From Thermocoleostomius sinensis A174 (lineage in GTDB: Bacteria > Cyanobacteriota > Cyanobacteriia > Elainellales > Elainellaceae), in NCBI RefSeq assembly GCF_026802175.1, contig NZ_CP113797.1:3387026-3451025 (forward strand): 64,000 bases of DNA, read 5' to 3'. The stretch's first letter is position 1; every line of letters starts with the position of its first letter. The notes under the pieces were generated by a model that worked only from the letters and a program-made list of their open reading frames with translations, was not told the DNA's origin and made no database searches. Of this stretch, positions 39,816 through 57,237 are shown in pieces. Made by a program: the position numbers and the translations under genes.

Positions 39816-39907
39816 CGGAGAGGGAGGGATTCGAACCCTCGGTACGGACTTTCGAACCGTACAACAGATTAGCAATCTGCCGCTTTCGACCACTCAGCCA
39901 CCTCTCC
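39816..39907 (-). tRNA. tRNA-Ser(GCU)
   Basis: The minus strand begins GGAGAGGTGGCTGAGTGG and ends with CCTCTCCG, giving a perfect 7-bp acceptor stem. The T-loop GGTTCGAATCC and anticodon loop ATTGCTAAT (anticodon at 39871-39873) are clear. The 92-nt length with a long variable arm is class II, typical of tRNA-Ser. CCA is not encoded. Confidence 0.95.
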
Positions 39908-43364: not shown

Positions 43365-43774
43365 GTCATCCTTGCCAATAACGTCAGTTCCTCTATGAAG
43401 CTATGAAGCAATGTGACTGGCAGCAGAAAGCTTAATGAAGGCAACAATGACCCACCCTTCCGCTGCAAGTCGGAACAGTAGGAGCCATCAGCCTCTTCAA
43501 CGTAATAGAAATAGCTAACAAAATTCCTTAACGCTGGGCGGTTTCGGCGAGCTCCATCGCCATCTCTATCACTTATAGCATCCTATAGCCGTACGGGGAA
43601 GAAGCGGTGGTGAAATACTCCAATGCAAATGGGCACATCAACAGCGGAGGCGGTTACGGCACGCAATCAAACAAGCTGTTAGTGTCCCCCCATCTGACTG
43701 GAACGATGCTGTCCATTCGCCGGAAGTTCGATCGTTAATAACTGATGCTTCTGCTACCTATCTACGCCATTGCT
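43365..43774. other. 410-bp gene-free region
   Basis: The region separates the antiporter and the U32 peptidase, both on the minus strand. I find no open frame with coding character and no repeat or terminator I can support. It is not related to the dispersed repeat family. Confidence 0.4.
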
Positions 43775-56528: not shown

Positions 56529-56774
56529 TTAGGAAACGTAGCGTTTATAAATTCGCATAATTTCACCCGGCGCTCTCACCGTGGCTTGCTGAATCTGGGC
56601 ATAGGGCAAGGCCCGCGACCAGTGCTCCACTCGGCAAAACCCACAGTGATGCAGATGGGCGATCGTGTGCTCCACCTCTTCGGGTGGTCCAATCAGCAGC
56701 ATTTTCACCGATCGCCGAGACGACGCCACGGGGCGATTGTCCCCTGTGGACACACTCATGAACTCATCAGTCAT
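56529..56774 (-). CDS. small conserved hypothetical protein
   Basis: An 81-residue protein. A polar ~22-residue N-terminus (VSTGDNRPVASSRRS) precedes a compact alpha/beta core: KMLLIGPPEEVEHTIAHLHH, then GFCRVEHWSRALPYAQ and a C-terminal GEIMRIYKRYVS. Similar small proteins seem widespread in cyanobacteria, but none has a known function to me. AAAGGAG sits about 10 nt before the ATG, and a perfect 8-bp hairpin (56792-56812) ends just 4 nt upstream of that site, so translation could be controlled by the structured leader. FAAL lies downstream on the same strand. Confidence 0.7.
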   Translation of the reverse strand: MTDEFMSVSTGDNRPVASSRRSVKMLLIGPPEEVEHTIAHLHHCGFCRVEHWSRALPYAQIQQATVRAPGEIMRIYKRYVS

Positions 56775-56788
56775 GCTTAAACTCCTTT

Positions 56789-56982
56789 AGGTCTAGGGTA
56801 AGAAACCCTAGAGACTCGCTCTCAGCAGACTCAGACAGCACCAGGCCGCACAAGCTGAAAGCAGGGGCGCTATAATGCACCCTAGCCTTTAGACTAGTGG
56901 ACATAGTCTGAGGTTAGCTAGCTCAGGTGTTCAGCTTGCCCGGCAGACACCTAGCTAGCGCTAGAGAAGGGGGTCTCTAGGT
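56789..56982. other. series of strong hairpins with CTAG-rich stems and a possible pseudoknot
   Basis: Four stems follow each other. H1 is TCTAGGGT/ACCCTAGA (56792-56812). H2 is CTAGCC plus AGACTA against TAGTCT plus GGTTAG (56882-56917). H3 is GCTAGCT-c-AGGTGT/ACACCT-AGCTAGC (56917-56959; 13 bp, one bulge). H4 is CTAGAGA/TCTCTAG (56961-56980). The H3 loop TCAGCTTG is perfectly complementary to CAAGCTGA at 56851-56858. CTAG occurs about ten times in 240 bp. The block lies directly before the 81-residue gene (minus strand), so it could be its leader or an independent RNA on either strand. I do not recognise a known riboswitch. Confidence 0.65.
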
Positions 56983-57237
56983 AGCCAGGTTACTCTTCCT
57001 CTAACAGATGAATAACCATAGTCACCCACCCTAGCAGAAGCTGATTACAGAATCAAGTCATATTTGTTACCGTCTTGTCTGCATAGAATAAACCAGCCCC
57101 CCAACGCTTAAGGTGGCAACCTTGCTGGTCTGTGGTAATTCATCGCAAGATTTTGACAATACCACAAGAATTAGATAGCTGAAGCCCGTTCGATTATTTA
57201 GGCTTAAATGGTCATTAATATAATACCGGTGAACGCT
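56983..57237. other. remaining gene-free sequence with two further stem pairs
   Basis: ACCAGC (57092) pairs with GCTGGT (57124), enclosing AAGGT-GGCA-ACCTT. A second stem is TGTGGTA (57131) with TACCACA (57160). The region ends at the azoreductase start. No gene is seen. Confidence 0.5.

Follow-up and report, generated by a model that had tools for sequence, protein, structure and literature searches.

A predicted five-helix leader RNA with two hypervariable loops precedes a small-protein gene in cyanobacteria and may be a target of antisense control

What is the function of a cluster of strong hairpins lying directly in front of a gene for an 81-residue protein? The question is raised by positions 56,789-56,982 of a 64,000-nucleotide stretch (the window) of Thermocoleostomius sinensis A174, which is part of a 5.8-Mb one-contig genome designated G000. 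The hairpins described in the initial annotation of this tract are present in the sequence, and the comparisons reported here indicate that they belong to the structured 5' leader of the gene (56,983-56,800, minus strand). This leader is predicted to form an RNA of five helices, P1 to P5, conserved ahead of genes of one unnamed small-protein family. Judged from the aligned sequences, the apical loops of P2 and P3 are hypervariable between copies and between species, while the stems, the junctions and P4 are not. The mechanism that we favour, with a probability of about 0.5, is a translational switch between P1 and a competing hairpin, P6, in which the P2 and P3 loops would be read by an RNA from the opposite strand.

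Folding of single sequences was only moderately better than chance, with z-scores of -2.55 for the minus strand, -2.75 for the plus strand and -3.43 for a longer minus-strand leader. The proof of the structure is comparative, since a 41-pair structure written from a copy in G010, a genome of a different genus of the same family, pairs at 41 of 41 positions in the window. In an alignment of 97 sequences (A7), which was fitted with a model and leans towards that model, two-sided changes were found in 39 of 40 pairs, supplying the compensatory mutations that the initial annotation had named as a check. In this alignment 93.2% of the cells were paired, compared to 75.1% after shuffling and no more than 51.7% after sliding; the covariation score was 0.487 compared to 0.171 and at most 0.087, respectively. 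The loci for A7 (98, of which L068 was missed) were chosen such that opposite-strand mirrors were avoided. When the 21 leaders of the window subtype were aligned by sequence only (A8, drawn from the 27 leaders of A2 by excluding the second G000 subfamily and L059), the alignment had 97.7% of its cells paired and 12 two-sided pairs, against 4.3 in shuffled alignments; within this subtype four of the six P4 pairs showed two-sided changes. The P1 pairs were kept in all 27 G000 and G010 leaders, and P1 covaried between subfamilies, GAGAC/GUCUC being changed to GAAGC/GCUUC in five of the leaders. Finally, 11 leaders of other genera, each preceding a distant relative of the protein, yielded a consensus containing P1, P2, P3 and P5 (A4). 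For the first leader set 25 were tried, eight lacked an anchor and 17 were aligned; L025, L027 and L032 were excluded, and A4 was reached after further exclusion of L021, L059 and L061. The covariation rules out random hairpins.

The leader is closed by P1, in which CCUAGAGAC (56,973-56,981) pairs with GUCUCUAGG (56,807-56,815), the latter strand being identified by conservation and covariation of the pairing; these and the following leader coordinates are on the minus strand. P2 (56,917-56,959) is the 13-bp stem with one bulge reported in the initial annotation, and its arms, 56,947-56,959 and 56,917-56,930, enclose a hypervariable loop (56,931-56,946). The junction between P2 and P3, CUAACC in the window (consensus CURACC; 56,912-56,917), was near-invariant in A2, A4 and A8 and differed in some copies of the Microcoleus group. 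P3 (56,892-56,908) has five pairs and a hypervariable 7-nt loop, UGUCCAC (56,897-56,903). It is followed by GGCU and P4 (56,865-56,887), which has the conserved loop AUUAUA (56,871-56,876), and by P5 (56,818-56,862; arms GCUUUCAGC and GCUGAGAGC), with 99.5% of cells paired in the subtype alignment. A Shine-Dalgarno sequence, AAAGGAG (56,782-56,788), directly follows the last hairpin, and the 81-residue minus-strand open reading frame (ORF; 56,529-56,774) is the gene that fits the hairpins.

A new cis-regulatory RNA was one of the explanations offered in the initial annotation, and this explanation is now strongly supported by the covariation, the lack of an Rfam match, the association with one gene family and the competition of P6 with P1. 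No match to the element was found in Rfam 15 in the scan of the window or at E values up to 10, in agreement with the earlier failure to recognise a riboswitch class. Among 18 other loci, 16 of which carry the RNA, only a tRNA was matched, and the divergent loci L085 and L126 gave only matches far below the gathering score at E up to 10. The long closing helix had first suggested 6S RNA, which was dropped on the basis of these scans. A literature search, with most subscription journals outside its scope, found no description of this RNA class. The window scan also located a fluoride riboswitch (RF01734, above its gathering score; 43,472-43,570, minus strand) and a tRNA (39,816-39,907, minus strand).

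A DNA search with the leader revealed five places in G000 and thirteen in G010, and matches at this level were confined to two of 60 genomes, one of them G000. The window version is present in four G000 copies, whose homology begins at the promoter and is lost at about the end of the ORF; a second G000 subfamily, with six copies, follows the same plan with a leader sequence that is clearly different. More distant copies were sought with covariance models. The first model (R1), built from the 11 leaders of other genera and containing no window-type sequence, found the window copy with 26.9 bits (E=1.4e-5 in 239 kb and 3.4e-4 in a whole-genome search) and detected the RNA in at least 52 of 146 related genomes, a lower bound with at most 19 candidates scored per genome. 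The second model (R2) was trained on sequences that included the window copy and its close paralogs, so that its high window score is by construction, and did not include the copies of a further G000 subfamily, here called subfamily C. At E≤5.3e-7 it found 27 copies in G000, with two further, weaker matches; in a phylum-wide draw, where up to seven candidates were scored for each genome, the RNA was present in at least 13 of 386 genomes, in a few families. A 23-base DNA pattern run over a contig collection gave 112 stretches; the 80 listed were all cyanobacterial by title, and 78 of these 80 loci held the full structure, at 79 places. The other 20 model matches in these loci were opposite-strand mirrors at the same places, and none lay elsewhere. 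One 74-kb contig, NODE_37 of Oculatella LEGE 06141, carries three RNA units (L129, L145 and L180) within about 30 kb.

The most unusual feature of the RNA, absent from the initial annotation, is the hypervariability of the P2 and P3 loops. The 11 copies of subfamily C are nearly identical from promoter to stop codon, and the two loops are replaced from copy to copy. Their mean pairwise difference was 0.50 in the P3 loop and 0.26 in the P2 loop, compared to 0.00 in the stems and junctions from P1 to P3, 0.006 in the remaining RNA, 0.055 in the promoter and 5' untranslated region (UTR), 0.18 in the spacer to the AUG, which contains an 11-nt indel, and 0.05, 0.07 and 0.16 at the three codon positions. 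Apart from the two loops, the copies differ mainly in a segment of the gene and in the indel; loop versions are found combined with each other and with both versions of the protein. In the 17 G010 copies the P3 loop differed by 0.58 and the P2 loop by 0.46-0.51 around a nearly fixed CAAGC, against 0.24 for the P5 loop and 0.31 for codon position 3 in the first 150 nt of the gene. A third set consisted of 23 units of the Microcoleus/Tychonema group, chosen by shared neighbours and without three that have an insertion in P2; the values were 0.42 for P2, 0.43 for P3, 0.22 for the P5 loop, 0.19 for the 90 nt upstream, 0.30 for codon position 3 and 0.03-0.09 for the scaffold. The P3 loop thus exceeded codon position 3 in all three data sets (0.50, 0.58 and 0.43 against 0.16, 0.31 and 0.30). 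Among 160 close pairs from other genera the differences were 0.58 in P2, 0.44 in P3, 0.19 in the P5 loop and 0.17 in P4. The same pattern holds for the four paralogs of the window version, in which 12 of the 13 variable columns of the 175-nt RNA fall within the 23 nt of the P2 and P3 loops; a further 24 variable columns lie in the initial 210 nt of the gene and five in the 75 nt preceding P1, and the 32 nt after P1 are without any. In 85 of 97 copies the P3 loop is 7 nt long, and 78 distinct loops were counted among the 97. The small gene of subfamily C (L227-L239) is itself a mosaic, in which two versions of the middle segment recombine between copies, and this mosaicism suggests conversion among paralogs.

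Several copies are dispersed and nearly identical, with homology that is lost at the stop codon or no more than about 50 nt from it, and with unrelated 3' flanks. The initial annotation had allowed for a palindromic repeat element, and one part of that proposal stands, as the promoter, RNA and gene are dispersed together in many copies. The element is not a plain repeat, since the unit moves with its gene and covaries; likewise, repeats of the repetitive extragenic palindrome or miniature inverted-repeat transposable element type spread without a gene of their own. The dispersal, together with the presence of two variable loops per RNA, would also suit a mobile cassette in which the loops guide placement in the manner of a bridge RNA. 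We consider this improbable: the unit contains no recognisable recombinase or transposase, the protein is short, no inverted or target repeats were noticed by eye at the boundaries, and upstream flanks are shared by copies whose loops are the same, which points to descent.

The control of translation is suggested by the 3' end of the leader. The 3' strand of P1 is also the 5' arm of P6 (UCUAGGGU/ACCCUAGA; 56,792-56,812), so that formation of one helix excludes the other, and P6 ends at or covers the ribosome site. In the window P6 (arms 56,805-56,812 and 56,792-56,799) lies just 5' of this site and is the hairpin that the initial annotation had placed next to it. The energies of the P1 and P6 states in the 21 subtype leaders favoured P6 by a mean of 2.3 kcal/mol (range -1.9 to 6.7). 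In leaders of other genera P6 overlapped P1 in 82 of 85 cases, whereas shuffled spacers gave a mean of 68.1 and a maximum of 74 in 40 rounds, and the real P6-type hairpins had -16.5 kcal/mol, compared to -11.7 kcal/mol for shuffled ones; the 85 are the leaders with a recognisable ATG and ribosome site among 95 places, identical ones being removed. A second competitor of P1, P0, is found on the 5' side in the window subtype, where the 5' strand of P1 can pair locally with UCUCUAG (56,961-56,967); it was seen in the G000 and G010 subtypes. Because of the position of the ribosome site, opening of P1 would be expected to turn translation off. The switch may also exist in a transcriptional version. 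At the locus L046 a terminator-like site was found on the sense strand at the join of P5 and P1 (one, against 0.7 expected from shuffles), and the window scan gave no terminator-like site on either strand.

A conserved structured 5' UTR domain, a multi-helix junction with near-invariant unpaired bases and an expression platform predicted to exclude the closing helix are also properties of riboswitches. The junction, comprising CURACC, GGCU and the P4 loop, might bind a metabolite or ion and shift the balance between P1 and P6, with its output at the ribosome site or in transcription through P5 and the following U-run; the L046 site would agree with the latter. A riboswitch of a new class is nevertheless unlikely in our judgement. 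The RNA is followed almost only by one small-protein family, which may itself serve a pathway tied to a ligand, and genes for metabolism or transport did not recur as neighbours in ORF clustering, except through synteny between close relatives. Moreover, ligand sensing leaves unexplained why the P2 and P3 loops change faster than codon position 3.

The hypervariable loops call for a partner. Kissing between the P2 and P3 loops of one molecule was not clearly above permutation (28 of 300 permutations reached the observed value), P3 loops were not self-complementary by the same measure (72 of 300), and no reverse-complement pairs of the kind expected from loop inversion by template switching were seen by eye. 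Since little else changes in subfamily C and P2-P3 complementarity is not above that of permuted loops, the partner is probably not located elsewhere in the same transcript. The loops are probably not read by the small protein either, because a single protein version is associated with several loop pairs, and both versions are found with one loop pair. A partner made from the opposite strand would change automatically with the loop, and the loops would therefore be free to diverge. Read on that strand, the P4 loop of 86 of 97 copies matches TANNNT, the usual cyanobacterial -10 box; in 62 copies TGN stands before the box, giving TGNTANNNT. In the window the candidate box is TATAAT (56,871-56,876, plus strand), situated inside the P4 loop and pointing at P3 and P2, away from the less variable P5 loop. 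This arrangement of sequence motifs suggests, at a little under even odds, that an antisense RNA starting from the -10-like box opens P1. We infer this step, as no -35 element was seen and consensus scanning of two loci gave no antisense terminator.

According to the switch mechanism that we favour, the leader would act in cis to decide whether the small protein is translated. With P1 formed the ribosome site would be open; with P1 opened, P6 would form and translation would stop. An antisense RNA, transcribed from the -10-like box in P4 of the very locus that it controls, would be the opener and would carry exact complements of the P3 and P2 hairpins. First contact would be made through the P3 and P2 loops, as FinP does with traJ, and pairing would then run into the 5' strand of P1 and release P6. 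Each paralogous copy would answer mainly to its own antisense RNA. On this basis we put forward, tentatively and with rather more doubt than belief, that the leaders are antisense-controlled switches of a chromosomal family that is spread genome-wide, with more than two dozen members in one genome, most of them having their own kissing-loop pair and serving as separate channels. To our knowledge, separate-channel antisense control is otherwise known from single plasmid loci.

Several observations weigh against the antisense-read switch. Shuffled spacers often overlap P1 as well (68 of 85), and the ribosome site of the window subtype lies just outside P6, so that blocking there would have to be by neighbourhood. 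The TANNNT box is missing from 11 of the 97 copies, and the P4 loop could be conserved for a reason at the RNA level. The scan of the window found a consensus promoter or terminator on neither strand, and no -35 element was seen; in the one further locus scanned, L046, sites resembling promoters and terminators were confined to the sense strand. With respect to the loops, the use of codon position 3 as a yardstick depends on conversion among the copies, and in G010 the 5' UTR before P1 differs by 0.39, nearly the level of the P2 loop (0.46-0.51). Separation of the copies is also incomplete, as both loops are common to L228 and L230, to L233, L237 and L239, and to L050 and L051.

The same small-protein family lies downstream of the RNA at 73 of the 79 places. 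Of the remaining six, four lie where the contig piece runs out, so that only L163 and L176 are real exceptions. Among 30 whole-genome loci, which partly overlap the 79, L107 precedes another small ORF, and L104 and L108 precede nothing recognisable. By eye, the few exceptions look mutually unrelated; at L101 (1501-1663) an N6_N4 DNA methylase gene stands behind the RNA in place of the small gene. In ORF clustering the main recurring neighbours were the small gene and ORFs that are antisense shadows of the element, and the remainder comprised one scattered family and synteny among close relatives. A hidden Markov model of the protein matched 14 of 16 further G000 places, some of them weakly (E up to 0.0011); a relative was recognised by eye at L225, and none was found at L226. 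Two degenerate G000 members were observed, L057 (leader 1558-1727), with an in-frame TAA, and L058, in which the small gene is split between two frames. The few copies with no recognisable family gene downstream (L104 and L108) could be taken to mean that a free-standing noncoding RNA is processed from the leader and that the gene is incidental. This is very improbable given that 73 of 79 copies precede the gene and that P6 ties the fold to the ribosome site.

The protein has about 65-115 residues and a predicted beta-alpha-beta fold (AlphaFold model, mean pLDDT 78). Four members gave no match in Pfam, and searches of Pfam and NCBIfam at E up to 1 and of PADLOC were also negative; PHROGs gave only hits with E values of 0.33 and 0.045. 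No convincing solved relative of the model was found (best Foldseek E 0.59; best VIA-align Z 4.7). With one member as query, a phage search gave no match and a plasmid search gave 13 records, all cyanobacterial. Two relatives on Nostocales plasmids (L222 and L223), one near parG and the other near an HNH endonuclease gene, had no RNA match in the model search. Among 28 relatives, each from a different genome, the RNA accompanies 17 and is absent from 11; seven of these 11 adjoin an ORF of the helix-turn-helix (HTH) or ribbon-helix-helix (RHH) type, confirmed with Pfam (HTH_3/HTH_26 or RHH_5 at L034, L036, L037, L038, L041, L042 and L033). Based on these two counts, the small gene is often found beside a local controller, either RNA or protein. 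The HTH/RHH arrangement resembles protein-controlled toxin-antitoxin loci.

The near-exclusive pairing of RNA and protein (73 of 79) and the frequency of local controllers (17 of 28, and seven of the other 11) would also be expected if the small protein or a relative of it bound its own leader and shifted P1/P6, in the way of ribosomal-protein leaders. We hold such autoregulation to be quite unlikely, as loops and protein versions are found in different combinations within subfamily C, the same version with different loops and the same loops with different versions, and the protein matches no nucleic-acid-binding family by sequence.

The extent of the element had to be revised: the minus strand is the active one, and the 5' end lies about 70 nt further, at a putative promoter near 57,056. 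This promoter (57,028-57,056, minus strand) consists of TTGATT (57,051-57,056), a 17-nt spacer and TAGGGT (57,028-57,033), and is proposed from its conservation among the G000 and G010 copies, since a consensus scan gave no sigma-70 site there. An 8-bp hairpin follows (56,988-57,017, minus strand; arms GGTTATTC and GAGTAACC), and hairpins were seen by eye at this position in other copies. The initial annotation had further proposed a pseudoknot, based on 8 bp of complementarity between a loop and an upstream site. The complementarity is present in the window (56,845-56,859 with 56,930-56,944, 87% over 15 nt), but beyond a CAAG(C)/GCUUG core it did not recur in other copies. The core has five pairs in 17 of the 21 subtype leaders and three or four in the remaining four. 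A conserved pseudoknot is not supported, because the partner strand also forms P5 and because L050 and L051 retain only about half of the pairing. In two single-sequence folds of the minus strand the pairing occurred together with P6 and not with P1, and the core may serve as a kissing contact. The accumulation of CTAG noted earlier is real, with nine in 56,789-56,982, the densest 194-bp stretch of the window; the tetranucleotide is not rare here, occurring 219 times in the window compared to 140 expected from dinucleotides.

A fold kept across many cyanobacteria while two loops change suggests that each copy answers to a partner RNA of its own. These results add an abundant structured RNA class to the cyanobacteria, with 27 copies at the threshold given above in a single genome, and provide a compact case of a frozen scaffold with two racing recognition loops. 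If the antisense partner is real, the paralogs would naturally form a collection of RNA channels that are largely separate, in which the diversification of RNA recognition could be measured. The results also draw attention to an unnamed family of small proteins that is often locally controlled by RNA or found beside HTH/RHH genes.

The closest known working principle is that of FinP and traJ of F-like plasmids. According to the published descriptions, FinP is a 79-nt RNA with two stem-loops that sequesters the translation initiation region (PMC8136791), and specificity resides in the loops (PMC5415839). The common feature is a pair of neighbouring leader hairpins whose loops serve as specificity elements. 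The leader described here differs in having five predicted helices and a P1/P6 switch, in being chromosomal and multicopy and in preceding an unrelated small protein, and its antisense RNA is a candidate only. In RNAI/RNAII and CopA/CopT the stems are constant and the loops differ by compatibility group, so that partners do not cross-react. Differing loops on constant stems were likewise found here; those plasmid RNAs control replication and occur once per plasmid, whereas one chromosome here holds 27 copies. As in type I toxin-antitoxin systems, a small protein seems to be under tight local control, and some relatives lie beside HTH/RHH genes. Type I toxins are typically shorter than 60 residues (PMC11264685), a size that the present protein exceeds. 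The candidate type I pair of Microcystis, msoT1/msoA1, is described as a 63-residue protein with predicted membrane helices and an RNA that pairs with the 3' end of its mRNA (PMC12390103); it differs from the present system in protein length, in predicted fold and in pairing site. Translational riboswitches share the aptamer-like junction and a ribosome-site hairpin that competes with P1; the present leader is set apart from them by its two hypervariable loops and by the lack of a visible link to metabolic genes. Bridge RNAs of the IS110 type stand next to a DEDD recombinase, whereas the gene adjacent to this RNA encodes, at 73 of the 79 places, the small protein already described, which had no Pfam match in the four members tried. 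We do not claim membership in the FinP/traJ, RNAI/CopA or type I toxin-antitoxin class; the RNA class is new to Rfam 15 and, if the antisense partner exists, its mechanism would be a new variant of antisense control.
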